Source: Terriglobia bacterium (GTDB taxonomy: Bacteria; Acidobacteriota; Terriglobia; Terriglobales; Acidobacteriaceae). Taken from it: a DNA stretch of 64,000 bases. Each line of letters opens with the position of its first letter. Position 1 is the first letter of the stretch. A program made the position numbers and the translations under genes. Location: contig JAIQFA010000018.1 in NCBI GenBank assembly GCA_020073525.1, positions 38,775 to 102,774 on the forward strand, given 5' to 3'. The notes below the pieces were generated by a model. That model was not told the origin of the DNA, did not search any database, and worked only from the letters and a program-made list of their open reading frames with translations. This document shows, piece by piece, positions 19,512 through 35,349 of the stretch.

Positions 19512-20492
19512 CTATGCGACGTGTCGCAATTCCCGAACTTTGTTGGTCATTTCCGGCAGGAATTCCAGGAGGTCGTCGACAATCCCGACGTCTGCCACCT
19601 GAAAGATCGGAGCCTTCGGATTCTTGTTGATGGCGATCAGGAACGGACTGCCTTTAATGCCAGCCAGATGCTGGAAGGCGCCACTGATGCCGCATGCCAG
19701 ATAGACTTTGGGTTTCACGGTCTTTCCGGAGGACCCCACCTGGCGGGATTTCTCCATCCACTTGGCATCGACCACGGGCCGGGAGCAACTCACAGCCGCG
19801 CCCAACGCATCGGCCAGTTCCTGCGCAATAGCCACGTTGTCTTTTTCCTGGATGCCACGGCCGACGGAGACCAGCACGTTGTACTTGGTGATATCTACAT
19901 CACCTGCCTCAGGCACGACCGTCTCCAGATAGCGGCGGCCTGCTGCCAGAACGCCAACGTCAGAGGATTTATCGACGATCACGCCACTGTCAGCAGAGCC
20001 GTCCAGCCCCTTGAACGCGCCCGGACGTATCGTGACCACTGCACCCGCCGAAAGGTCACAGCGAACGTGAGCGCTCACCTGTCCGCCAAATTCCTGGCGG
20101 ACGATTTTGAGGTCGGGGCCTTCAACGCCTGCGATTTCCACTACGTCGGAGACAAATGCTGCATTCAACTTGATGGACAGACCCGGCGCCAGATCAATTC
20201 CGAAATGCTCGTGAGCAACCAGCACGATGCTGTCGCTCGGCAATACCTTTACAAGCGCTTTGCGGATTAATTCAGCATTGGGGTAGGCAAGAGCTTCATT
20301 GGCGATCTTCCAAGTTTCAGCGAAAGAAGTATCGACTGCCTTGCACGCCGCATCAAGGTCCGCGCCCCAACCGGCGAGAATGGCCGTCGGCGAAGCGGCG
20401 GGGTCGATCTTGCGTGCGGCGGCCGCCAACTCGAACGCGGTGTCGTCAGTCGCGCCGGCTTTATGCGCGATGTAACAGAAGATGCGAGCCAT
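19512..20492 (-). CDS. etfA: Electron transfer flavoprotein alpha subunit
   Basis: C-terminal FAD domain: VSVGRGIQEKDNVAIAQELADALGAAVSCSRPVVDAKWMEKSRQVGSSGKTVKPKVYLACGISGAFQHLAGIKGSPFLIAINKNPKAPIFQVADVGIVDD. Confidence 0.95.
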   Translation of the reverse strand: MARIFCYIAHKAGATDDTAFELAAAARKIDPAASPTAILAGWGADLDAACKAVDTSFAETWKIANEALAYPNAELIRKALVKVLPSDSIVLVAHEHFGIDLAPGLSIKLNAAFVSDVVEIAGVEGPDLKIVRQEFGGQVSAHVRCDLSAGAVVTIRPGAFKGLDGSADSGVIVDKSSDVGVLAAGRRYLETVVPEAGDVDITKYNVLVSVGRGIQEKDNVAIAQELADALGAAVSCSRPVVDAKWMEKSRQVGSSGKTVKPKVYLACGISGAFQHLAGIKGSPFLIAINKNPKAPIFQVADVGIVDDLLEFLPEMTNKVRELRHVA

Positions 20493-21292
20493 TATTTCAA
20501 CCCTCCTTTGGCTGCCACTAACTCCAGAATCTTGTCGATGTTCTCTTCCCGCGTGCCGTGCAGAATTTCCGCGCCCTTGCCCAGCGTGGGAACGAAGTGG
20601 TCCACGCGTTTCACTTTCGCGCTAGCCTCCCCTACAGCGGCGGCGCCAAGTCCCAGTTCCGATGCGCCGAGAGTTGGAATAGGAATAGAGGCCACTTGCC
20701 GGATGCCTCGCATGCCGACATAACGGGGTTCGTTGATGCCCGTCTGGATCGAGAGCACACAGGGCAGATCAATCTCACTCATTTCTTTGTTGCCGCCCTC
20801 GATCTCGCGACTGATTTTCAGCTTTTTGTCGAGCACCTCAATGGAGTTAACCAGCGAAGCGAATGGGTAGTCGAGCAACGCCGCCAGCATCCCGCCGACC
20901 TGGGCGCCACCGTCCTCGGCCTGAACCCCGGTCAAAATCAAGTCGTAGCTATCCTTCTGGATGAAGGCTTTGAGGATGGTCGCGATGCCCCTGCCGTCCG
21001 ACCCGCTGAACGCATCGTCCGTGATCAACACTCCATGATTCGCACCCATGGCCATTTCGCGGCGCAGGATCTCTTCGTCGTCTTCGCCGCCAACCGTGGC
21101 GACGGTGACGTGGCCACCGACTCTGGCGACAATCTGCAGCGCCTCTTCGACCGCATAGTTGTCAGGCTCGTTGATCGAATAGACCAACTCATCGCGCTCG
21201 ATGTCATTTCCCGCGCTGTTGAGTTCGATCTCGTTTTCCGAAGTGTCGGGCACCCTTCGCACGCAAACCAGAATTTCCACGTTCACCTCCAC
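20492..21292 (-). CDS. etfB: Electron transfer flavoprotein beta subunit
   Basis: ILVCVRRVPDTSENE, NEPDNYAVEEALQI, DLILTGVQAEDGGAQVGGMLAALLDYPFASLV; stop/start junction with etfA. Confidence 0.95.
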   Translation of the reverse strand: MEVNVEILVCVRRVPDTSENEIELNSAGNDIERDELVYSINEPDNYAVEEALQIVARVGGHVTVATVGGEDDEEILRREMAMGANHGVLITDDAFSGSDGRGIATILKAFIQKDSYDLILTGVQAEDGGAQVGGMLAALLDYPFASLVNSIEVLDKKLKISREIEGGNKEMSEIDLPCVLSIQTGINEPRYVGMRGIRQVASIPIPTLGASELGLGAAAVGEASAKVKRVDHFVPTLGKGAEILHGTREENIDKILELVAAKGGLK

Positions 21293-21314
21293 AGAATTTC
21301 GCTTACTTCCAATC

Positions 21315-23474
21315 TCAATCGGGTCTAGTGGACGACGCCATCACGACGGCTTCGTTGATTTCGGTAGCAGGCTCTACTTTCACATCAGGGCACTCACGCG
21401 CGATTTGCTGGTCGACGAGTTCCACCAGATCGATGGCTGTCATCTTTGCTTCCAGCCCCGCGACCTTGATCGCATCTTCGATATTCACCATGCAGAACGG
21501 GCAAGCCGTCACGATCACATTGGCTCCAGCTTCGGCGGCCATCTGCACTCTCTTCACGCCCATTTGCTGCTCTTCTTTCGGCTCGTAGAACAGCATCAGC
21601 CCGCCACCACCACAGCAGAACGAGCGGTCGCGAGATCGGGTCATTTCGACTCTCTTCAATTTCGGAATCGCATCCAGCACATAGCGAGGATCGTCATAGA
21701 TATGGTTATGCCGCCCCAGATAGCACGGATCGTGGTAGGTGTAGACGCTGTTTCCGTTCTCTACGGGATTGAATGTGATCCTGCCGGATTTCACCTCTCG
21801 GGCGATCACCTGGCTGATGTGCTCCACCGGCGGCACATCCTTATAGTCGTGTTTCAGCGCGTTGTAAGCGTGCGGGTCCGCCGTGACGATCCGCCGGACT
21901 CCGGACGCTTTGATGGCGTCCACGTTGTGGTCGCGCAGGGCCATGAAAAGCGTCTCTTCGCCGAAGCGGCGGACTTCGTGTCCGCTATCTCGCTCCGCCG
22001 CGCCGAGGATTGCGAAATTCTCTCCAACGTGGTTGAGGATCTTTGCTGTTGCCCGCCCGATCGACTGCATCCGGTCGTCGTAGGAGGTGATGCTGTCGAC
22101 GAAATACAGAGTGTTGGCGCCATTGCTCGTACCAACGGTTTTGACCCTGCAGGTTTGCTGGAATTCTTTGGCGTTGGCCCAGTCGGCCTTCTTCTTCTCC
22201 ATCTTGCCGTAAGGATTGCCGCGGCTCTCCAGCGCCTTGAGCGGCTTCTGCAGGGATTGCGGCACATTCCCGTTATCGACCAGGCCCCGCCGCAGATCTA
22301 CGACCTTGTCGATGTACTCGACGAGCAACGGGCACTCTGCCTCGCAAGCGCCGCAGGTGGTACAGGACCAGATTTCGTCTTCGGAGTAAATGCTGCCGGA
22401 GTCTTTGCTGCCGACGAGAGCCGTGCCATTGCTCGCGCGCCCAAGCACTGGATAGTGTTGGAAGCTGTAATCTCGGGCCTTGATAGTGAGGAATCTTGGC
22501 GACAACGGCCGTCCCACCGCATGGGACGGACAATTGTCCGAACACCGCCCGCAATCGGCGCAGGAATAGAAATCCAGCATGTGCTTCCAGGTGAAGTCTT
22601 CGAACGTCTTCACGCCGAAGGATTTCACCTGATCCAGATGCTCCTCGGCGACGCCCCATCGCACCGGCTTCAGAATCTCGCGGTCCAACTTTGCGAAGTA
22701 AACATTGAAGAGGGAGGTTTCCACATGGAACTGGATTCCAAAGGGCCGATAGCAGAGCAGGAAGTAGAAGGTCAGTTCGTGGACAAGATAAGCGCCGAAG
22801 TAGAACCTTCCGAGAGCGGGCAGGGAAGCTGAGACCAGAGCCTTCTGCAACATCCACGGGAGCGAAAATGCGGCCAATACTTCAACCGATTGACCTGCCT
22901 GCAATTGGGCAGCGCCCTTAGCGGCGGCAAAGAGGCTGTCGGCCACCATCAGGATTGCGATCAGCGACAGAAGGAAGATGGCGTCGGCCGTGTGGGCTTT
23001 GCCGTACCTTGCCGGTACCGCGTACCGCGCAGGTTTGAAAACTAGGCGGCGAGTCACGGCAATCACCATGCAGAGAAAAACGATGGTGGCGGCGTAATCA
23101 GTGACGATGTCGTAGATCGGGCCGGCTCTTCCTGCAAGGCCAGGCATAACGAAATTCTGGGAGACACCGACAATCAGCACCGAGAAGGCGCGAATGGCGA
23201 GAACCAGGAAGCCCGCAAAAATGAAGATATGAAGGATTCCAGCAGTGCGGTAGCGCGGATGCTTCCACTGGCCCAGCCAATACTTCCCAACCCTTCCCAG
23301 TCGCACCCATGGCTGGTCAAAACGAAAGTCGCACTCGCCCCGAAGGAGCGGGACCAGACGTTTCGCCACAATATAGGAGAAACCCACGACACCTAGAAGG
23401 TGAATGGCTAAGAAGAGGTCTCGGCCCGTGACCAACCAAGAGGTCACTTGCGCAGCTGACTCGATGCCTACCAC
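21315..23474 (-). CDS. Membrane FeS oxidoreductase of the ETF:(methyl)menaquinone oxidoreductase (EMO/DUF224) type
   Basis: N-terminal multi-TM heme-b-like domain, two 4Fe-4S motifs (CADCGRCSDNCP, CTTCGACEAECP), two CCG domains (DPCYLGRHNHIYDDPR, SFCCGGGGLMLFYE); adjacent to etfBA. Confidence 0.87.
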   Translation of the reverse strand: MVGIESAAQVTSWLVTGRDLFLAIHLLGVVGFSYIVAKRLVPLLRGECDFRFDQPWVRLGRVGKYWLGQWKHPRYRTAGILHIFIFAGFLVLAIRAFSVLIVGVSQNFVMPGLAGRAGPIYDIVTDYAATIVFLCMVIAVTRRLVFKPARYAVPARYGKAHTADAIFLLSLIAILMVADSLFAAAKGAAQLQAGQSVEVLAAFSLPWMLQKALVSASLPALGRFYFGAYLVHELTFYFLLCYRPFGIQFHVETSLFNVYFAKLDREILKPVRWGVAEEHLDQVKSFGVKTFEDFTWKHMLDFYSCADCGRCSDNCPSHAVGRPLSPRFLTIKARDYSFQHYPVLGRASNGTALVGSKDSGSIYSEDEIWSCTTCGACEAECPLLVEYIDKVVDLRRGLVDNGNVPQSLQKPLKALESRGNPYGKMEKKKADWANAKEFQQTCRVKTVGTSNGANTLYFVDSITSYDDRMQSIGRATAKILNHVGENFAILGAAERDSGHEVRRFGEETLFMALRDHNVDAIKASGVRRIVTADPHAYNALKHDYKDVPPVEHISQVIAREVKSGRITFNPVENGNSVYTYHDPCYLGRHNHIYDDPRYVLDAIPKLKRVEMTRSRDRSFCCGGGGLMLFYEPKEEQQMGVKRVQMAAEAGANVIVTACPFCMVNIEDAIKVAGLEAKMTAIDLVELVDQQIARECPDVKVEPATEINEAVVMASSTRPD

Positions 23475-23501: not shown

Positions 23502-25127
23502 CTAGGCGATCAGCCGCGTCAAGACTTGTTCCTCCTTAACTGGGGCCCCTGGTGGTATTGCTGATTCGATGGAAGCGGGATGCGGAGCCGGACCGGATGC
23601 GCGAGCGGGCGCTGGTACCGGCGCCGGTCTCCATGCAACCTTCGCTTTCGCACGCACCCTCTTCTTGTTCTTCATTTCAGCTTTCTTTCGCGGAGGTGTG
23701 ACACCGGCGGCTTCCCGCAGTTCTGTGAAGCTCCTTTGCAGGAGCGTTTCCAGACGCCGCAAATCCGGCGCTGCATGCACATCTCCGCTGAACCCGAAAT
23801 ATGCCGTGCCGTTGTAGGTCAGGATGGCGCAGTTGAGCGCCATCTCGCCGCCGACCGGGACATACGGGTAACAGTGCAGCATCTTGTGGCCGAGCAGGTA
23901 GAGCGGATACTGCGGTCCCGGCACGTTGGTGCACACCATGTTGAACGGTGTGAACGGCAACCGGCTCAGGATGTGACCGCCCAACGCCTGCGCTGAGGTT
24001 GGGAACATGCCGATCAGGCCGCCGGTCAAACTCACCAATTCGGCGGCATGTGCGCGCTTGAGAAACTCTGTTCTCTTATGGACGGCCGCCAGCAGTTTCC
24101 GCGGATTGCGGATATCCAGCGGAATGGTGACCGGGACCAGCGAAATGCGGTTCCCTAATTCGCGCGTAGTGTCGCTGCCGCGCAGGTTGACCGGAACCAT
24201 CATGCGGAACAGCCGCCCCTTGACCGGGTCGCCATGCAGTTCGAGGTACCGTCGGACGGTCGCTGTCACCAACGCCAGAATGACGTCATTCACGCTGGTG
24301 CCGCATGTGTGCTTTATCGCTTTAATCTCCGCCAGTGGAACTTCGGCCCAGGCAAACTTTTGCGGACCGCGGTAGAAAACGTTAAACCGCAGCCGCTCGG
24401 TGGATGCGCTAAGTTCCGGGAGTAAACCTGTGAACTCGTCGGTGGCCAGGCTTCCGCCATTCGCGGCAAAGCGTTCCGCCATGCTCGACACGTCCGCCAT
24501 TGCGTCGAGGATTCGTTTGACCAATTCGGAATAGGTGTCGACGCAGCCGTTCGTGAGCGAAGTCAAGACGCCACGCGGTGGGGGGATCTGGAGGCGAAGC
24601 TTTCGTCGGGGCAACCGCGGCGCCACCGGGCTCGCATCCATGAGCACATTCATGATCCCAACCCCGGCGATGCCATCAGCGAGGCAGTGGTGCAGGCGGA
24701 AGATGAGTCCGCTGCGATTGTCCTTCAGCCCATGCACCAGAGTCATGTCCCAGAGCGGGTGGCGCCGGTCCATCACCGTGCTCAAAATTTTTCCCGCCAG
24801 CGTCTTCAACTCCGCGTCGGAACCATACTTGAGCGTCACCTCGTGCACGTGCCGGAGGACGTCGAAGGTTGGGTCATATTCCCAACTGGGCAGGCCGATA
24901 TTAAGCGGCGGGGACACCACCCGCTTGAGGTAGCGGGGAATCAACGGCAGTTTCGACTCGACAAACTGGATGCAAGCTTTGAAAGGGACTTCGCCCTCAA
25001 ACACGCAGACACAGGCCACGTTGAGCGGCATACCTTCGCGTTCCAGATGGAGGAATACGGTGTCCCCCCAGGAAAGGCGGTCGCTTTGCTCGTTACTCTG
25101 CTCAACGTTCTGCTCATGGCTCGACAT
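23502..25127 (-). CDS. Wax ester synthase/diacylglycerol acyltransferase (WS/DGAT)
   Basis: HHCLADGIAG (HHxxxDG motif), GTSVNDVILALVTATVRRYL, TPFNMVCTNVPGPQYPLYLLGHKM, Pro/Ala/Lys-rich C-terminal tail. Confidence 0.95.
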   Translation of the reverse strand: MSSHEQNVEQSNEQSDRLSWGDTVFLHLEREGMPLNVACVCVFEGEVPFKACIQFVESKLPLIPRYLKRVVSPPLNIGLPSWEYDPTFDVLRHVHEVTLKYGSDAELKTLAGKILSTVMDRRHPLWDMTLVHGLKDNRSGLIFRLHHCLADGIAGVGIMNVLMDASPVAPRLPRRKLRLQIPPPRGVLTSLTNGCVDTYSELVKRILDAMADVSSMAERFAANGGSLATDEFTGLLPELSASTERLRFNVFYRGPQKFAWAEVPLAEIKAIKHTCGTSVNDVILALVTATVRRYLELHGDPVKGRLFRMMVPVNLRGSDTTRELGNRISLVPVTIPLDIRNPRKLLAAVHKRTEFLKRAHAAELVSLTGGLIGMFPTSAQALGGHILSRLPFTPFNMVCTNVPGPQYPLYLLGHKMLHCYPYVPVGGEMALNCAILTYNGTAYFGFSGDVHAAPDLRRLETLLQRSFTELREAAGVTPPRKKAEMKNKKRVRAKAKVAWRPAPVPAPARASGPAPHPASIESAIPPGAPVKEEQVLTRLIA

Positions 25128-25168: not shown

Positions 25169-25444
25169 TCAGCTCACGAACGAAAATCGTGACGCCAGCT
25201 TCACCAGCTTGAGCACTTTGTAGACACCGACGTTGACGCCGCGCAACGCGACGTTGACGCCCTTGACGTCCGCTATGTCCGCGAATTCCTCCATAGCTCT
25301 GAGAGCACTCGGATCGATCCGGCGCACGCAAGAAAAATCCAAGGCCACTTCGCCCTCGACGCTATCCAGTCTTTCTTCGGCTTCTTGCAACGCTTGCACA
25401 ATGCGTTCTTCGTCAATCTTGAGCCACACTGCGGTCATTCCCAT
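25169..25444 (-). CDS. STAS-domain (anti-sigma-antagonist-like) protein
   Basis: EGEVALDFSCVRRIDPSALRAMEEFADIADVKGVNVALRGVNVGVYKVLKL; start MGMTAVW 12 nt downstream of the adhE-like stop. Confidence 0.65.
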   Translation of the reverse strand: MGMTAVWLKIDEERIVQALQEAEERLDSVEGEVALDFSCVRRIDPSALRAMEEFADIADVKGVNVALRGVNVGVYKVLKLVKLASRFSFVS

Positions 25445-25455
25445 GCCACCACCTG

Positions 25456-28134
25456 CTAGACGGTTTGCTGCAGCGTTCCTTGCTGCTGAACTGCACTCGC
25501 CTTCACCGCGCCTCGCCCCTGATAAGCCTTCCAAAACAAGTCAGCCAACTCGCTCATCAATGGCATACGAGGGTTCGACCGCCAGGACGGATCGTCAAAG
25601 GCAAGCTTGGTCAGTTCCGGCATCGCCCGTTCGAATTCTTCCTTGGAGATTCCCAACTCGGCGATTGAACGCGGGAATCCCAATTGGTCAAGCAACTGTT
25701 CGGTCGCTGCCACCAGGTTCTTCACTTTTTCCTCGATTGTGTGGCCGCCCAGACCCAACAGATCGGAAATCGTCGCGTATTTCTTGTTGGCGACGTATCC
25801 CTTCTGGTACGGCGACGGCAAGAACTTCATGGGCACAGAAGCGTTGTAGGCAATCACGTGCGGCAACATGAGCGCATTCGCCCGGCCGTGTGCCACGTGG
25901 AAGTGCGCTCCGAAAGCATGTGCCAGGGCGTGATTCACGCCCACCGACGCGTTGGCAAACGCCATCGCCGCAATGCAAGCGGCATTGTGCATCATGGAGC
26001 GCGCCTCTTCATCGCGGGGATGCTCATACGCGATGGGCAGGTACCTGAATGCCAGCCGGATCGCCTGCATGGCGTTGGAGTCGGTATAGGCAGAGGCGTA
26101 GCTGGAGACGGCGGCTTCTAAAGCATGGGTGAGGCAATCGATGCCGGTGTCAGCGGTAAGGCCCTTCGGCATGGAGATAACAAACTGCGGATCGACGATC
26201 GCCACATCCGGGCTCAGCGAGTAGTCGGCGAGAGTGACCTTGCGGCCGCGTTCCTTGTCAGTGAGAACGGCAAAGGGAGTGACTTCGCTTCCCGTTCCGC
26301 TGGTAGTGGAGATGGCAATCAGCCGCGCCCGGTTAATCTTCTCGGTTGGGTACTGCACCACGCGCTTACGCAGATCCAGGAAGGGCGCGGCCAGTTCTTC
26401 CAGATCAGCGTCCGGCGACTCGTACTTGAGTTTCATGATCTTGGCCGCGTCGATCACCGAACCACCGCCGAGCGCAATGATCTGGTCCGCCTTGTAGAAA
26501 TTGAGCGCCTCCACTCCTTGCATCACCACCTTGACCTCGGGCTCCGCATCGGGAATGACCGAGACGTGGACGTGGGTTCCCTCCGGAATGTAGCGCCGGA
26601 CAAGGTCGACATGGCCGATATGCTCCAGGGCTGGATTGGTAACGATGATGGTGGAGCGCGACGGGAACTCGCGTATATTCTCCACCGCATTCATGTTGAA
26701 ATAAATCTGGTTGGGCACCCGGAACCACATATGGGCTTGGGTCCTCCGAGCCACACGCTTGATGTTGAGGTAGTGATAGATATTGACGTTGTCGGTGGTG
26801 CTGTTGCCGCCGCCGGTGCCACATCCGAAGGAGAAGGTCGGTGGCAGATCGTTGTAAACTCCGCCTACCGCGCCTACTGAGCCGGGCGAGTTCACGAGGA
26901 TGCGCCCCGCGTTCATCACTTCGCCGAACTTGCTGATGACCTCTTCATTGCGCGAGAAGATGACCGCGGTATGGCCCAGCCCGCCGGCATGATTCACGTC
27001 GATGCACACCTTGAGGGCTTCATCAACGGATTTCGCGCGATAGACCGCGAGCACTGGAAACAGCTTCTCCACTGACAGGGGATATTTGCGGCCTACGCCT
27101 TGAATCGGCGCAATCAGCAGTTTGGTGCCCGGCTTCACCGAAATACCCGCAAGTCTGGCGATATCACTTGCCTTCTGCCCGACTGCCGCAGGTTGCATGA
27201 ACCCAGTCTCGGGATCGATGACCGTGCGCGCCAGCAGTTCCGTCTCTTTCTCGTTGCAGATGTGCGTGCCCAGCTCCGCAAACTTCTTCAGCACGACATC
27301 ATAAATCTCATCGTCGATCACCGCGGTTTGTTCGGAGGCACAGATGGTTCCGTTGTCGAAAGTTTTGGAGAGGATGATGTCCGTCACCGCCGTGTTCAGG
27401 TCCGCGGTTTTTTCTAAATACACCGGCGTGTTCCCCGGCCCCACACCGAGAGCCGGTTTGCCGGAACTATACGCGGCTCTGACCGCCCCCGGCCCGCCGG
27501 TGGCATCAATCAGGCCCACGTCTTTGTGCCGCATCAGGTAAGCGTTGTCCTGTAGGGTGTGCGATTCCAGGCAGCTAAAAACACCTTCGGGCGCACCATG
27601 CTTCAGCGCGATTTCGTACATGATCTTCACGGCCTCGGAGCAACAACGCCACGCATTTGGATGGGGACTGAAGATGACCGCGTTGCGCGTCTTGATGGCC
27701 ATGATGCATTTGAAGAGCACCGTGGAAGTGGGGTTCGTAATCGGCGTGATTGAGAAGATGACCCCGATCGGTTCCGCCAGTTCCACCAGGTCGCGTTCGG
27801 GAAACTCGCGGATAATGCCAACCGTCCGTTTATCCTTTATATAATTGTAGACGAACTCGGTGGCCACCATGTTCTTGATGACCTTGTCTTCCATGACTCC
27901 GACTTTGGTTTCCTCAACCGCCAGGCGGGCGAGATGTTGAGCTTGTTCCAGGCCAGCCAGGACCATCGGCTTGACGATGCGATCCACGTCCTCTTGCGTG
28001 AATTGCGTGAAGACGGCTGCTGCTGCTCTGGCTTGACCGACTAGCCTCTCCAGGTAGGCAATCCGTACTTCACTTAGGCATTCTGCGGCCAGCGGGATCT
28101 GAACCCGTTCCTGCACTGCTTCACTCGTCACCAT
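25456..28134 (-). CDS. AdhE-type bifunctional CoA-acylating aldehyde dehydrogenase/Fe-alcohol dehydrogenase
   Basis: ALDH Cys motif FDNGTICASEQTAVI; Fe-ADH GGGSVIDAAKIMKL, TGIDCLTHALEAAVS, ALAHAFGAHFHVAHGRANALMLPHV. Confidence 0.93.
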   Translation of the reverse strand: MVTSEAVQERVQIPLAAECLSEVRIAYLERLVGQARAAAAVFTQFTQEDVDRIVKPMVLAGLEQAQHLARLAVEETKVGVMEDKVIKNMVATEFVYNYIKDKRTVGIIREFPERDLVELAEPIGVIFSITPITNPTSTVLFKCIMAIKTRNAVIFSPHPNAWRCCSEAVKIMYEIALKHGAPEGVFSCLESHTLQDNAYLMRHKDVGLIDATGGPGAVRAAYSSGKPALGVGPGNTPVYLEKTADLNTAVTDIILSKTFDNGTICASEQTAVIDDEIYDVVLKKFAELGTHICNEKETELLARTVIDPETGFMQPAAVGQKASDIARLAGISVKPGTKLLIAPIQGVGRKYPLSVEKLFPVLAVYRAKSVDEALKVCIDVNHAGGLGHTAVIFSRNEEVISKFGEVMNAGRILVNSPGSVGAVGGVYNDLPPTFSFGCGTGGGNSTTDNVNIYHYLNIKRVARRTQAHMWFRVPNQIYFNMNAVENIREFPSRSTIIVTNPALEHIGHVDLVRRYIPEGTHVHVSVIPDAEPEVKVVMQGVEALNFYKADQIIALGGGSVIDAAKIMKLKYESPDADLEELAAPFLDLRKRVVQYPTEKINRARLIAISTTSGTGSEVTPFAVLTDKERGRKVTLADYSLSPDVAIVDPQFVISMPKGLTADTGIDCLTHALEAAVSSYASAYTDSNAMQAIRLAFRYLPIAYEHPRDEEARSMMHNAACIAAMAFANASVGVNHALAHAFGAHFHVAHGRANALMLPHVIAYNASVPMKFLPSPYQKGYVANKKYATISDLLGLGGHTIEEKVKNLVAATEQLLDQLGFPRSIAELGISKEEFERAMPELTKLAFDDPSWRSNPRMPLMSELADLFWKAYQGRGAVKASAVQQQGTLQQTV

Positions 28135-28266
28135 CACTGCCCCCGTAATTACTTGTCGGAGTCTCTTCCCTGTGAGGAGCGTGCTTGCTTTTCTGGTCCC
28201 AGCTCTCTCGACCATCTCTCGTGACCATGAGGACAGTCGTCGGATCGCTGGTAAACTTCACGGTTC

Positions 28267-28653
28267 TTACGCGTAGTCGATCGGATGCTTGGTCAGCCAG
28301 CGCTCATCGCGCACTTTGCCCATGTTCCTCATGGCGCCACCAGCAACGCTCGCGGTGAAACGGCGGCTTTTCCATGCCAGGCTTGCGCCAAGACCGATTA
28401 CGCCACCCAGCAAACCGTATGCTAACGATCTGATAATGGATTTCTGCCGATATCCTCGATAGCCGCCGAGCACACCGATGCACGCCCCAAGGGCGGCAGG
28501 CTTCAAGGCATTTCGAACCGACTCGCTAAGAAAAGGAGTGAGAGATTTTCCGTTGAGGAATGCTTCCTGGCCGGAACGCGCTCCCTGAATTCCGGAATCC
28601 AGGAGCCTTCGGCCGTACTCAGCGTTTGACTTTGACCACTCGCGCAAATCCAC
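28267..28653 (-). CDS. Small hypothetical protein with glycine-rich hydrophobic segment
   Basis: ORF in cluster orientation; ALGACIGVLGGYRGYR and LAYGLLGGVIGLGASLAW segments. Confidence 0.5.
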   Translation of the reverse strand: MDLREWSKSNAEYGRRLLDSGIQGARSGQEAFLNGKSLTPFLSESVRNALKPAALGACIGVLGGYRGYRQKSIIRSLAYGLLGGVIGLGASLAWKSRRFTASVAGGAMRNMGKVRDERWLTKHPIDYA

Positions 28654-28871: not shown

Positions 28872-29345
28872 TCACGGGGCCATCTGGCTCCCCTCGACTC
28901 GCTTTTTGCGGACGTGCAAAACTTTTTGCACTTCCGCGATCACAGTTCCGGTTTCATCTTTGACGTCTACGGAAAACGTGGGTTCGATCTTCTCTTGTGT
29001 CTGCAATTCCCGGCGGACTTCTTCGATCTGCTGCTCCGACAACCGAAAGGCTGCGAATACCTTGCCCTTTCCCGGTTTTCGAAAACGGATGTTCGCGAAC
29101 TTGTCCCACACGATGTAATCGCGGCCCAGATTTTCGATGAGCATCAGCATGTAGAACGGGTCAGTCATGGCGTAGAGCGAGCCCCCGAAATGAGTGCCGA
29201 CGTAGTTGCGGTTCCAGACGCGCAGCTTCATCTCCACATCGATGGCCTTCCAATCGGACTGCAGGCGTGTCACGCGGATGCCCGCCCCAAGGAAGGGCGG
29301 CCAGAGATTGATGAGCCAGCGCAGGTGCCTCTTCACGATTGTCAT
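28872..29345 (-). CDS. DUF4442-like hotdog-fold (thioesterase-like) protein
   Basis: MTIVKRHLRWLINLWPPFLGAGIRV...NRNYVGTHFGGSLYAMTDPFYMLML...YIVWDKFANIRFRKPGKG. Confidence 0.75.
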   Translation of the reverse strand: MTIVKRHLRWLINLWPPFLGAGIRVTRLQSDWKAIDVEMKLRVWNRNYVGTHFGGSLYAMTDPFYMLMLIENLGRDYIVWDKFANIRFRKPGKGKVFAAFRLSEQQIEEVRRELQTQEKIEPTFSVDVKDETGTVIAEVQKVLHVRKKRVEGSQMAP

Positions 29346-29395
29346 ATCGAGTCTCGCCGCATGCAGAGTCACCCACGATTCCACATTGCAGCGCG

Positions 29396-31009
29396 CTACG
29401 CAACCGTGCTCTGCGACGATGTCCCATACTTTTGCCGCAGCTCTCGTTTCAGAACCTTGCCCGTTCCACTCTTCGGCAGGCTTGCGAGAAACTCGACCGA
29501 ACGCGGACATTTGTAGTGCGATAGGCGTGCGCGGCAGAACTCCAAAATGTCGTCTTCCCTCGCGAGTGCGCCCGGCTTCAAGGTAACGAGCGCTTTCGGT
29601 ACCTCGCCCCACTTCTCGTGAGGAACGGGAATCACGACCGCCTCATATACGTCCGGGTGGCCAAGAAGTACCTTCTCCACTTCCAGCGAAGATATGTTTT
29701 CGCCCCCGCTTACGATGATCTCCTTCTTGCGATCGACAATCTGGATGTAGTTGTACCGGTCCACCGTGGCCACATCACCGGTGTGAAACCAGCCGCCCTC
29801 CATTGCGGCCGCTGTGGCCTCCGGCTGGCGCCAGTAGCCTTCCATGACGACGTCGCCTCTCGCCACGATTTCACCCATGACCGCGCCATCGTGCGGTACA
29901 TCTTTCCCGTCGGGTCCAACCACGCGAAGTTCCACGCCGGGAATCGCAAATCCGGTCATCGCCTGGCGGGCATATCGTTGTTCCCCTTCGACGGTAACAT
30001 CCGATTTCACTTGCGATTTCGCAAGCGTAGGGCAGGTCTCAGTCAGGCCGTATCCCGAGATGCAGGTGCAGCCCAGCTTCTCCTCCACTTCTTTCACCAA
30101 GGTAGGAGATGAGGCCGCTCCGCCAATGATGACGATCTGCAGGCTGCTTAGGTCGTAGTTCCGTCTCGCCGGAGAATTTACCAGGGCTGTCACCATAGTG
30201 GGCACCATGGCGCAGGTAGTCACGCGCTCCTCCTCGATCAGCCGGAACACTTCCACCGGATTAAAGTGCTGAATCATCACGTGCGTACCGCCGACAACGG
30301 TAATGGTGTGGGCAGTGCCCCAGCCATTCGCGTGAAAGAGCGGAATGGTTTGCAGCATCACCGTCTTGCACGACATTTCTCCAATCGTGCTGGTGGAAGT
30401 CTGTCCTGCCGCGATCACGGACAAGGCGTGCAGATACACATTGCGATGCGTGAGCATCACGCCTTTGGGGCGGTCGCTGCTGCCGCTGGTGTAGAAGAGT
30501 TCGGCGACCGAGTCTTCATCAATTTGCATGAAGTCACACTGGAACGGAGGAGAAACGGACAGAAGGTCGTCGTAGTTCCTTGACGCCAGCCAGTTCGCTT
30601 GCGGTTGACCGTCTAAAAGGAAAGAAGTCTCGATCGAAGCGACAGTCGTCCGAAACGATTCCACTAACGGTACGAAGATCGATTCGACAAACAAGAATCT
30701 TGCCTGCGCATCATTCAAAACGAAAGCAAGTTCCTCGGCACCCAGGCGAATGTTCAGGGGCACCAACACGCATCCGGCTTCCAGAACCCCGTAATAGGCT
30801 TCCAGGAGCCGATGACAGTTTGTGCCGAGAAAGGCGATGCGATCGCCAGGTTTCGCCCCCGCGGTGATGAGGGCGCCTGCCAAGCGCGCTGCGCGGTCGG
30901 CGAATTGCGCATACGTAAACCGCTGTCCGCCGCATACTACTCCGACTCTGTTCGGAAATTGTTCACACGCATAGCGCAGGAAGCGAATGGGAGTTAGCGG
31001 GATTTTCAT
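29396..31009 (-). CDS. AMP-dependent acyl-CoA synthetase/ligase
   Basis: LFYTSGSSDRPKGVMLTHRNV, GYGLTETCPTLA, GWFHTGDVATVDRYNYIQIVDRKKEIIVSGGENISSLEVE, PKSGTGKVLKRELR. Confidence 0.95.
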   Translation of the reverse strand: MKIPLTPIRFLRYACEQFPNRVGVVCGGQRFTYAQFADRAARLAGALITAGAKPGDRIAFLGTNCHRLLEAYYGVLEAGCVLVPLNIRLGAEELAFVLNDAQARFLFVESIFVPLVESFRTTVASIETSFLLDGQPQANWLASRNYDDLLSVSPPFQCDFMQIDEDSVAELFYTSGSSDRPKGVMLTHRNVYLHALSVIAAGQTSTSTIGEMSCKTVMLQTIPLFHANGWGTAHTITVVGGTHVMIQHFNPVEVFRLIEEERVTTCAMVPTMVTALVNSPARRNYDLSSLQIVIIGGAASSPTLVKEVEEKLGCTCISGYGLTETCPTLAKSQVKSDVTVEGEQRYARQAMTGFAIPGVELRVVGPDGKDVPHDGAVMGEIVARGDVVMEGYWRQPEATAAAMEGGWFHTGDVATVDRYNYIQIVDRKKEIIVSGGENISSLEVEKVLLGHPDVYEAVVIPVPHEKWGEVPKALVTLKPGALAREDDILEFCRARLSHYKCPRSVEFLASLPKSGTGKVLKRELRQKYGTSSQSTVA

Positions 31010-31218
31010 GGGCGCCTCGCGATGGATGATGGACAACAGAGTGCCCGCCGGCAGGAGCCCGCCAGCGCGATACTCAACCGGAAATGTCAATTGAGTTGAC
31101 TGGTTGTCCCGTGCGGAGTCGAAGGACCCCGTGGCCGCGTACCTTTATGCCCGCCCCGCAAGGAACTTTCTCCCGTGCTGGTTTACACGCGCGAAACAGG
31201 CTTTCGAAGAGAACGCCC

Positions 31219-32139
31219 TTAGGCGCTCCCGGTACTCGGCCAAACGAGGGCCTTCGACTCGGCATGGCTCGCATTTGGCGCGAACCATTTGCGCTCGCCA
31301 CCTGGCTTCACCATGACATCCATCAATTCTTTCTGGGCGTCGACATAGCTTTTCACGCCTTCCCGAGTCAGTTCCGCCAACGGCAGGAAGGGAAATGGCC
31401 GCAGGAGTTCGAGGGTCTTGCCCGCGGTCTTCACATTGGCATTCATCTGCCGCCCGGCTACATCCACCAGTTTCCGCTGTGCGTCGATGAACGACTCCGT
31501 GGCATGGCGCGCCAGTTGCGACAGTTCGGTCTTCTTAATCTTCTTAGCCCCATTGGTGTGGGCCTTGCTGCCGGTGGCCTTCGCTGTCTCGTCGGCGACA
31601 ACGTCCATGAAGTGCTTCTGGGCTTTGACAAAATTGTCCATCGCCTCGCGGGCCAGATCCACCAGGTGCTCGGTCTGGTACGGCTTTCCCGCCTTGGCGG
31701 CCTCCACCCAGGTATGCGTTTGCTTGCTGGCAATCTTCAGGAACTCCTGCTGCATGTCGATAAATGTCTCCACGCTGCGCCGGAGCAGGTCGGTCACAGC
31801 CTGGGCCGCAGGCCACTCCCCGACACGTTCCTTGACACCCGACATCAGGATTTCGTTCTGCTTTTGTCCCAGTTCCAGCAGGACCTTTTGGCCTTCAATG
31901 AAGTTCGTTACGCCCTCGGCCGTCACTTCGCTGAGAATGGCCGTGGGGGAATGGTTAGGATCGGACAGTTGCTGCCGGAGCGAGTGCATCAGGCTTGCAT
32001 TCTGCCGCATGGCGAGATCCAGGAGGATCCGCTGTGTGGCAAAGAAACTCTGGACACCCTGCTGTGCCCAACCCGACAGAAGGGAAACGAAAGAAGACTC
32101 CGCGGAATGAGTCCGGGGATGTACAGCGGTTGTTGCCAT
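31219..32139 (-). CDS. Phasin-like granule-associated protein built of ~6 amphipathic repeats
   Basis: Repeats: GVQSFFATQRILLDLAMRQ / GVTNFIEGQKVLLELGQKQ / SVETFIDMQQEFLKIASKQ / AMDNFVKAQKHFMDVVADE / ATESFIDAQRKLVDVAGRQ / GVKSYVDAQKELMDVMVK. Confidence 0.7.
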   Translation of the reverse strand: MATTAVHPRTHSAESSFVSLLSGWAQQGVQSFFATQRILLDLAMRQNASLMHSLRQQLSDPNHSPTAILSEVTAEGVTNFIEGQKVLLELGQKQNEILMSGVKERVGEWPAAQAVTDLLRRSVETFIDMQQEFLKIASKQTHTWVEAAKAGKPYQTEHLVDLAREAMDNFVKAQKHFMDVVADETAKATGSKAHTNGAKKIKKTELSQLARHATESFIDAQRKLVDVAGRQMNANVKTAGKTLELLRPFPFLPLAELTREGVKSYVDAQKELMDVMVKPGGERKWFAPNASHAESKALVWPSTGSA

Positions 32140-32155
32140 TTGACACCTCCACATA

Positions 32156-32170
32156 TGCTGCATCGCAGCA
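32156..32170. promoter_or_regulatory. Inverted repeat TGCTGC-ATC-GCAGCA, candidate PhaR operator (CTGC-N3-GCAG)
   Basis: Perfect 6-bp inverted repeat in the divergent intergenic region between the phasin-like and phaR-like genes. Confidence 0.65.
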
Positions 32171-32262
32171 TCGATTAAAATATACGAGGATATGGGGTTT
32201 GTGTCAATATATATCTGTCGTATGTGCAGAGCAGCATAGTTGCGATCAGGACCGTGACCGAA

Positions 32263-32802
32263 ATGAAGCCCAACTCCGTCGTCATCAAGAAATATGGGAA
32301 TCGCAGGTTGTACGATTCCTCCAACAGCCGGTACGTGAACCTCGACGATATCGCCGGATTCATTCGGGAAGGCAGAGATGTTCAGGTTGTCGATGCCAAG
32401 ACCGGCCTGGACCTGACCCGGGTCACCCTGACGCAGATCATCACTGAGGATGCCAAAGACAAACCGACGGGTCTTCCACTCGAACTGCTCCGCCAGTTGA
32501 TCGTGGCCTCCGACGAGGTGCGGCAGGAGTTTGTCATGTGGTACTTGAAATCCGCCTTTGACACTTACCAGAAGGTGCAGGACGCGGTGCAGAGCCGGCT
32601 CGGTGAGGTCCAGTCCGCCATTCTGTCGCCCGTCGAAATGATGAAGCAACTGCTGGGCACTCAAGTACCAGCTCAGGGCCGAAGCGAGGCCGAACCGGAA
32701 TTGGAGGCACTGCGTAAGCGAGTAGCGGAACTGGAATCCCGGCTGGGAAAGCCCGTGCGAGCAAAACGAGGCTTACGCCGGAAGCAAAAGCGAAAGGTAT
32801 AA
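32263..32802 (+). CDS. phaR: PhaR-type polyhydroxyalkanoate synthesis repressor
   Basis: VVIKKYGNRRLYDSSNSRYVNLDDIAGFIREGRDVQVVDAKTGLDLTRVTLTQII is the PHB_acc_N DNA-binding domain signature. Confidence 0.92.
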   Translation: MKPNSVVIKKYGNRRLYDSSNSRYVNLDDIAGFIREGRDVQVVDAKTGLDLTRVTLTQIITEDAKDKPTGLPLELLRQLIVASDEVRQEFVMWYLKSAFDTYQKVQDAVQSRLGEVQSAILSPVEMMKQLLGTQVPAQGRSEAEPELEALRKRVAELESRLGKPVRAKRGLRRKQKRKV

Positions 32803-32880: not shown

Positions 32881-33687
32881 GTGCCGAGCAAAGAGAAAAA
32901 GACCACAGGTTCATCGAAGGCCGGGGATCGGCAGCAAACGCGCCGGGCCGATTCGGGAGCGGACATCTCACCCTGGACAGAGGCGCTGTTTGCGGCTGAA
33001 GTTCTCCTGCTGCACGCAACTCCTGTCTATTACGGGTTCGGCGTGCCCCGGGGAGATGGCTCGGCAGTGGTCATTATCCCCGGTTTTCTCGGTACCGATC
33101 TTTATTTGATGGAACTCCACTCATGGCTGGGGCGCATCGGATACCGGCCCTATTTCTCCGGCATCGGTATAAACGCCGAGTGCCCGAATCTCCTGGTCCA
33201 ACGCCAACTGAGCAAAACCATCGAAGAAGCCCTAACCGACACCGAGCGGAGAATTCACTTGATCGGTCACAGTCTCGGAGGGGTGATCGCACGTTCGGTG
33301 GCGGGCCAGCGACCGGGAGATGTGGCTTCGGTTATCACGCTGGGCTCGCCCTTTCGCGGTACTGTTACCAGTGGAGCCGTTCTCCACGCTACCGAAGCCA
33401 TTCGTCTGCGAATCCTGCAGGAGCATGGTCGAAAAGTACTGCCCGACTGCTACACCGGGCGTTGTACCTGCAATTTCGTGGATTCCTTGAAGCGCGAGTT
33501 TCCGGAAACGATGGTCCAGACCGCGATTTACACGCGTGATGACGGCATTGTGGACTGGCGCTATTGCATGACCAGGAATCCGGAAGCCGACTTTGAAGTT
33601 CCGGGCACTCATATTGGACTGGCATTCAACCCTTCGGTGTATTCCATCGTCGCCGAGCGCCTGGCGAAGGCGCAATCTTCCGAGTGA
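32881..33687 (+). CDS. Alpha/beta hydrolase (lipase/esterase-like)
   Basis: VVIIPGFLGTDLYLMELHSWLGRIGYRPYF, IHLIGHSLGGVIARSVA (GHSLGG), LGSPFRG; GTG start. Confidence 0.85.
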   Translation: MPSKEKKTTGSSKAGDRQQTRRADSGADISPWTEALFAAEVLLLHATPVYYGFGVPRGDGSAVVIIPGFLGTDLYLMELHSWLGRIGYRPYFSGIGINAECPNLLVQRQLSKTIEEALTDTERRIHLIGHSLGGVIARSVAGQRPGDVASVITLGSPFRGTVTSGAVLHATEAIRLRILQEHGRKVLPDCYTGRCTCNFVDSLKREFPETMVQTAIYTRDDGIVDWRYCMTRNPEADFEVPGTHIGLAFNPSVYSIVAERLAKAQSSE

Positions 33688-33857: not shown

Positions 33858-34661
33858 TCATTGCTGTCCGCTCAAGTCGGCCAGCTTCCGCAACCTAACT
33901 GTCGCGTCATTGGCGATGTCCTGCTGTAACCATCCGAGGTGACCGGCCCCATAGATCACGAGAATCCTTTCGTTCGGAGATTCGATCAGCTTGACGATAT
34001 TGTGATAAATGCGAATATTTCTCTGATACCACAGTGCCAGCAGGTCAGGTCCCGCATAGTCACCAGGTTCTCCGTAGGGCACGATGGCGTAATAGAAGGC
34101 CATGCCCTTTACCGCCATCGAATCGGAATTCATGTACTCCAACGTATCGAGCACAGTGTGCGATCGCAAGAAATCGTCCTGCTCCTTCACCAGCGTGCCC
34201 ATGCCCGCCATCATCGCGTCGAACTTCTCTGCCCGGCCACTGGCTTTGGCGTAGTTGGCCACCCGTTGCATCGGGAATTCGCCTTCGACATCGATCGGGT
34301 AGATCGCATGATGGCCAAGTTCCTTGGCCAGCCGGTATCCGATTTGATCGATCTCGTTACGCGACAGCGTGTACTTTCCCGCCACGTAGTCGGAATACTC
34401 ATGCCCCACCTTCTGGCTATCGATATCGGCTTCAATCGCAACCTTAGTCGGATGAAACCTCTTCAAAACTTCGATCAGCTGCGCGATTTCTTGCTGGCGT
34501 TTCGACGATTGGACATCGTCAGCTTGCATGTTGTAGATATCGCGTCCCGGGTTCGACATGTGATACGTCCCGAGCACTAGAATCTCTGGGCGAGCATCCG
34601 GTTGAGCCCAAGAAACTACCGATATTGCCAGTACCGCCAGAAACAGAAAAATCTTCCTCAT
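33858..34661 (-). CDS. Secreted DUF5694-like (TraB/GumN-related) protein
   Basis: Signal peptide MRKIFLFLAVLAISVVSWAQ; ILVLGTYHMSNPGRD, PTKVAIEADID, ILVIYGAGHLGWLQQ. Confidence 0.7.
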   Translation of the reverse strand: MRKIFLFLAVLAISVVSWAQPDARPEILVLGTYHMSNPGRDIYNMQADDVQSSKRQQEIAQLIEVLKRFHPTKVAIEADIDSQKVGHEYSDYVAGKYTLSRNEIDQIGYRLAKELGHHAIYPIDVEGEFPMQRVANYAKASGRAEKFDAMMAGMGTLVKEQDDFLRSHTVLDTLEYMNSDSMAVKGMAFYYAIVPYGEPGDYAGPDLLALWYQRNIRIYHNIVKLIESPNERILVIYGAGHLGWLQQDIANDATVRLRKLADLSGQQ

Positions 34662-35349
34662 GCATCCTCCGCTTCTGCATACGAATCTCCGCTGGGCAAA
34701 GTTCCATGTCACAGGGCGAAACAGCGCGGCTTTGTTCCCGGTGTCCGACTATCCACGCGGCGGAAGTTTCGCATCTGCTTGTGAATGGCTTTCCTACGCT
34801 GCTTTTCAGCCTGTCTTGAAAAGCCGCCAGCAACCTGAGTCACGAGGATGTCGCCGTGATAGGTGGCGATCAATCGCGTTACCACGCACAATATCAGTTT
34901 GAGACCCGACCAGATGCCATAGCTGCGGCCGCGGCAAGACCTCGCTGCGTGAGGTCTACTGCGACCAATGTTCGGACGGAATTGCGGCAGAGCGGGAAGA
35001 ACAGCGAGCGGCACGTAGGGAACAACGACAGGTGGGCGGCGTACACCCCGGAGTTCTTGATCTTGAATCCAGCCGGGTCACAGGCCGTGCTGACACTTCC
35101 CACCGGTCTTTAGCCCCTGAGGGACCTGGCAGCGCACTCCTTCGGTTTCATTAATTCATGAGATGGGTTCTACTTACACTGTCGCGTCGGCCCGTGCTAT
35201 CATCCCTCAACCCAGTGCGCTGTGGACCGAGTCCGCGGTGTTACCCGGGGTATGCGCGGGGCGTGCGACCGATACTAAGGAGAACCTGAACCATGGCTCC
35301 GCTTCCTCTCCATCCCGCTAGTTGTGTTCGCGCAGTTAAAACCTCGTTC

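Follow-up and report, generated by a model that had tools for sequence, protein, structure and literature searches.

Acidobacteriota are among the dominant soil bacteria, and the 64-kb stretch of DNA analysed here (the window) places a DNA switch and regulator of the kind associated with PHA granules within a predicted oil- or wax-droplet gene cluster (Table 1). Does the palindrome between the divergent phasin-like and phaR genes act as a PhaR operator, and which storage material would such a switch serve? The arrangement suggests that a granule sensor has been re-used for a droplet coat protein. The source genome (G000) is a MAG with a completeness of 100 and a contamination of 5.65%; the named relatives in its genus are Candidatus Sulfotelmatobacter.

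Table 1. Features of the phaR–WS/DGAT cluster, in window coordinates.
Feature	Position	Strand	Remarks
Fe-S (CCG-domain) oxidoreductase and both electron-transfer-flavoprotein (ETF) subunits	19512..23474	-	fatty-acid oxidation context
WS/DGAT	23502..25127	-	both WS/DGAT domains, HHCLADG
STAS-domain protein	25169..25534	-	
AdhE-type acyl-CoA/aldehyde and alcohol dehydrogenase	25456..28215	-	
p128, conserved small protein	28267..28653	-	no Pfam match; linked to cluster in genus
ORF with DUF4442 hot-dog thioesterase-like domain	28872..29612	-	start tentative; overlaps ligase
AMP-binding long-chain acyl-CoA ligase	29396..31009	-	
Phasin-like protein (phasinA)	31219..32139	-	306 aa; repeats predicted to be all-helical; PF09712 match weak
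Shine-Dalgarno GGAGG, phasin-like gene	32146..32150	-	
Operator O1	32155..32171	.	ATGCTGC-ATC-GCAGCAT, perfect 7-bp-arm dyad; putative PhaR site for phasin gene
-10 element TATATT, phasin promoter	32179..32184	-	TA.ATT-type element aligned in clade A
-35 element TTGACA, phasin promoter	32202..32207	-	17-bp spacer
Operator O2	32221..32237	.	TATGTGC-AGA-GCAGCAT, weaker, a single good half-site; probable site of phaR autoregulation
phaR, clade A	32263..32802	+	179 aa, PF07879
Serine alpha/beta-hydrolase (GHSLGG)	32881..33687	+	conserved third gene of clade-A module; proposed neutral-lipid lipase

The phaR–phasin intergenic region

The initial annotation placed a TGCTGC-ATC-GCAGCA site at 32156-32170, a position that proved exact; upon closer inspection, the dyad is one bp longer per side (ATGCTGCATCGCAGCAT), ending 16 bp short of the start codon (32139) of the phasin-like gene. 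The core of this site, O1, is the TGC-rich CTGC-N3/4-GCAG motif that is reportedly the PhaR operator in Paracoccus. As a genome-wide marker the core by itself was rejected as too common, with 5 occurrences in the window versus 3.5 expected. It arose in 0.2% of 20,000 dinucleotide shuffles of 32140-32262, and the full 15-mer site in none of them. The full TGCTGC-N3-GCAGCA form has four copies in the 6.0-Mb genome, in which O1 is the sole exact TGCTGC-RNY-GCAGCA (~0.15 expected from base composition).

Published PhaR sites include CTGCNNNGCAG in R. sphaeroides and, in S. meliloti, YGCRNYGCR flanked by AT-rich arms (PMC12542648), as well as a footprint-based consensus, TGCRNYGCASMA, in B. diazoefficiens (PMC6201568), to which O1 is a perfect match on both strands. 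The YGCRNYGCR pattern was also present in 57 of 62 other phaR upstream regions (nearly all non-acidobacterial), compared with 22 loci for a control stretch. On this evidence, the Paracoccus motif named in the initial annotation was a good lead.

The same region had been described as AT-rich and promoter-like, and it is indeed 55% AT (67% in 32172-32222) versus 41% for the window, with a near-consensus (11/12) sigma-70-like promoter on its minus strand. Read along this strand, TTGACA is followed by a 17-bp spacer, TATATT, a further 7 bp, the dyad, GGAGG and ATG, which places O1 between the -10 element and the Shine-Dalgarno sequence of the phasin-like gene. The transcription start of this gene is predicted at ~32172, on the edge of the dyad, so that a protein bound to O1 would block initiation or clearance. 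A second site that had been overlooked, O2, lies on the phaR side; the centres of O1 and O2 are 66 bp apart, and the pair brackets the phasin promoter. An O2-type sequence (TGCNNNGCA) occurs 66-70 bp from O1 in 24 of the 25 loci with exact O1 that belong to the PhaR lineage of the window (clade A), and O2 is probably the site of phaR autoregulation. The further site suggested ahead of the AMP-ligase did not materialise: 31010-31218 contains no good TGC-type dyad, and no separate operator for the AMP-ligase or for WS/DGAT was found in the window. The ligase would therefore be reached only via read-through from the phasin promoter.

With respect to the encoded proteins, PhaR matches PF07879 (E 1.3e-26, 92.9 bits; cut-off 25) and scores 97.5 bits against the NCBIfam equivalog TIGR01848, under the curated cut-off of 109.45; by these profiles it is a homologue, not confirmed as a PHA repressor equivalog. 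PhasinA scores 23.1 bits against PF09712, below the cut-off of 25.7, and has 23-27% local identity to proteins beside the PHA synthase (PhaC) of a second PhaR lineage, clade B. Its structure model was poor (pLDDT 44) and was used only for the description 'helical', and searching PDB sequences with profiles of PhaR and of phasinA gave no matches.

Conservation of O1 among relatives

The initial annotation took absence of the site from orthologous intergenic regions as evidence against an operator, and the outcome of this check favours the site. We gathered 38 phaR loci from the order and genus and compared their upstream regions, finding the exact 15-mer in 34, always with an RNY centre; O1 holds ~1.86 bits per column versus 0.3-0.6 in the flanks. 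Among the exceptions, one locus (L029) has O1 with one mismatch, and another (L012) is a second phaR copy with no adjoining phasin. In G035 (L021) the phasin has been relocated from phaR, and an exact operator is found with it at its new place (L189). In G154 (L035), a genome without WS/DGAT, the phasin is missing from the locus and p128 now adjoins; here O1 has decayed to TGCTGCAACACAACA, with O2 intact. Within the genus p128 accompanies the cluster at 50-74% identity and persists after loss of the phasin. In G072, a second clade-A phaR copy (L181) has neither an operator nor a phasin neighbour.

A dyad of this kind could be bound by another transcription factor or could be a chance palindrome, given that the CTGCN3-4GCAG 11-mer is common and that exact 15-mers occur in 55 of the 128 PhaR-less genomes of the order. 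However, the 15-mer is present in each of the 22 PhaR-positive genomes in the order sample (p ~1e-7), the site has a fixed position at the phasin promoter, and both its match to the footprint-derived consensus and its decay upon phasin loss argue for PhaR, leaving either explanation highly improbable. Owing to the consensus match and this decay, together with the conservation of the site and the presence of O2, O1 is, very probably, a genuine operator through which PhaR controls the phasin gene, and the sequence comparisons make its operator role a strong proposition. The control of both the phasin gene and phaR itself that the initial annotation envisaged is likewise strongly supported by comparative genomics and published PhaR sites.

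PHA synthase and WS/DGAT in two PhaR clades

The PhaR tree separates clade B (10 loci, support 1.000) from clade A (28 loci, including the window). A class-III-like PHA synthase was identified in all ten clade-B genomes, always at the phaR locus (within ~3 kb); the clade-B locus L048, followed over its full length, has a divergent series in which a phasin-like gene precedes a small gene without a Pfam match, placed where phaE would stand, and then phaC. Using TIGR01836 for PhaC, which also detects a class-I control genome, we found that 24 of 27 clade-A genomes lack a full-length synthase. WS/DGAT, in contrast, was identified in 16/16 clade-A genomes of the order sample versus 1/134 others, plus one marginal match (p ~1e-20), and in 11/13 clade-A genomes of the genus versus 0/11 (p ~3e-5), where both p-values ignore shared ancestry and are hence inflated, the linkage being a cluster association. 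Clade A and WS/DGAT are jointly present or absent within genera g1, g6 and g25, and the distance from WS/DGAT to phaR is 1-15 kb in 22 of 25 genomes (different contigs in the other three). WS/DGAT went undetected in two clade-A genomes, G169 (72% complete) and G154, and G095 possesses WS/DGAT without PhaR. The flanks examined at ~70 other phaR loci, almost none of them acidobacterial, contained no WS/DGAT. The 'non-PHA setting' of the initial annotation is supported by these distributions, with clade A travelling with WS/DGAT and not with PHA synthase.

Within the window, WS/DGAT scores 153.6 bits against PF03007 and 97.7 bits against PF06974, has HHCLADG as its HHxxxDG motif, and is co-directional with the phasin, acyl-CoA ligase, DUF4442, AdhE and ETF genes. 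An acyl-CoA ligase, an acyl-CoA reductase and WS/DGAT are together able to make wax esters; the ligase, reductase and WS/DGAT of this cluster would do so, with the AdhE-type enzyme as a possible source of the alcohols. The serine hydrolase is ~60-80% identical among clade-A loci, placed downstream of phaR in some and behind the phasin in others. Its model (pLDDT 63, moderate) resembled only generic lipase/esterase folds (TM ~0.55), and a role as PHA synthase was rejected, the lipase box GHSLGG having serine and not cysteine. A DUF5694 protein (33858-34712) adjoins the hydrolase.

It is nonetheless conceivable that clade A retains a classical PhaR-phasin switch, making PHA via an unrecognised synthase, or via a real class-I enzyme represented by a fragment in G000, with WS/DGAT as an independent storage gene. 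In favour of this, the regulator, the phasin and the operator all belong to the PHA type, and a 56-aa class-I PhaC-like piece (ISWVNPD...GYCVGGT) is encoded at the very end of C137, the contig that holds the window (L050:1-168; G000:C137:1-168). However, this piece, fused to unrelated sequence, matches PhaC over only the last 168 bases of a contig end in a MAG of the contamination given above, and G000 gave no PF07167 match and no full-length TIGR01836 match. The contig end is most likely chimeric or contaminant, PHA synthesis in G000 being still conceivable given the piece. Furthermore, full-length PhaC is confined to 3/27 clade-A genomes, two of which have a separate clade-B PhaR beside PhaC, and G154 no longer has a phasin at its clade-A locus; WS/DGAT tracks clade A almost perfectly. 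We therefore consider a PHA-serving switch in clade A unlikely.

A candidate lipid-droplet switch and its further targets

In the mechanism that we propose, the PhaR/phasin switch would have passed from PHA granules to the storage of neutral lipids. Clade-A PhaR would bind O1 over the transcription start of the phasin-like gene and block initiation, and the weaker O2 would provide phaR autoregulation. The phasin-like protein would coat the wax-ester/TAG droplets that the linked WS/DGAT would produce, and growing droplets would sequester PhaR, thereby derepressing the coat protein. In PHA bacteria, granule-bound PhaR leaves its operator (PMC12542648), and R. eutropha PhaR is described, in a 2006 paper as cited in PMC3570403, as binding PHB film by non-specific hydrophobic interaction, which makes binding of PhaR to neutral lipid plausible. 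It is likely, in our assessment, that O1 is the clade-A PhaR operator of a switch re-used for neutral-lipid droplets and derepressed by PhaR sequestration. If true, a granule-sensing switch would be movable between chemically different storage materials with its DNA code unchanged. The cluster provides candidates for a droplet coat, a regulator and a lipase, and a single operator suffices to test the whole idea.

Clade A resembles the PhaR/AniA-phasin switch of Ralstonia, Paracoccus, Rhodobacter, Sinorhizobium and Bradyrhizobium in its PF07879 domain and in the TGCRNYGCA dyad at the phasin promoter (PMC12542648, PMC6201568, PMC3570403), as well as in having a site at phaR itself and the phasin as main target. 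It differs in that most clade-A genomes lack PHA synthase, possessing instead WS/DGAT, acyl-CoA ligase, AdhE and the serine hydrolase, and in its longer palindrome with very few exact sites per genome. The clade-B loci (L047-L048, L051-L058) share the dyad at a divergent phasin-like promoter, and their PhaR is 57-65% identical to clade A in the N-terminal part; however, in clade B the class-III-like PHA synthase follows downstream of the phasin-like gene, the phaR side has no O2, and an extra GCAGCAT half-site stands beside O1.

In Rhodococcus jostii RHA1, droplets sequester MLDSR, the regulator of the droplet protein MLDS, giving a droplet-sequestered repressor that controls a major coat protein and itself (PMC5504291), much as would be the case for clade A. 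MLDSR has an XRE-type helix-turn-helix, whereas PhaR of the window has PF07879 only and no XRE domain, and MLDS is an actinobacterial protein, whereas the acidobacterial partner of PhaR is phasin-like. As MLDSR is unrelated to PhaR, any similarity would be convergent. We lean, with some reserve, towards a reading in which a distinct Terriglobia PhaR clade, convergent with MLDSR, is dedicated to sensing lipid droplets and governs both the droplet coat protein and the lipases of wax-ester/TAG storage. To our knowledge, no lipid-droplet regulator of this kind is known outside Actinobacteria. Our search of the open-licence literature found no report of PhaR or phasin paired with wax esters or lipid droplets; one paper noted a WS/DGAT scaffold of pseudomonadotal origin with a phasin gene on it, and described the storage of neutral lipids in Acidobacteriota as unexplored (PMC10351704).

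The phasin/phaR site is the only exact operator in G000, from which a homologue of a second alpha/beta hydrolase is absent; a wide regulon drawn from one-mismatch sites in this genome was rejected, 8/9 of these lying inside ORFs. Among relatives, exact 15-mers also precede this second hydrolase gene (G064, G099, G125 and G151, with one mismatch in G127), where the operator overlaps the likely -10 element, a universal stress protein gene (G099, G090) and a phasin paralogue (G087, G135). Phasin and lipase-like hydrolase as joint targets are the pattern expected for storage-body control, and in some relatives droplet-driven derepression may extend to the lipase-like hydrolase and the universal stress protein. 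Alternatively, clade-A PhaR might control the phasin via general hydrophobic or metabolic signals, or by constitutive binding, with droplets playing no part and the WS/DGAT cluster merely co-inherited. Such a role would accord with the universal stress protein among the extra targets and with the wide regulons of rhizobial PhaR homologues beyond PHB (PMC6201568, PMC12542648), but each genome has few strict operators, and these stand at phasin and lipase-like genes, as expected of a coat-protein switch, and we regard it as improbable. In G150 (L214, L215; C49:6614-7809), the second-hydrolase gene is split in two frames and is without an operator. A second phasinA paralogue in genus g6 (L187:12408-13055, L188:3166-3876) has its own exact operator, and the universal stress protein gene (L195, L200) displays the same -35/-10/operator layout, with a second TGC-type site on its far side.
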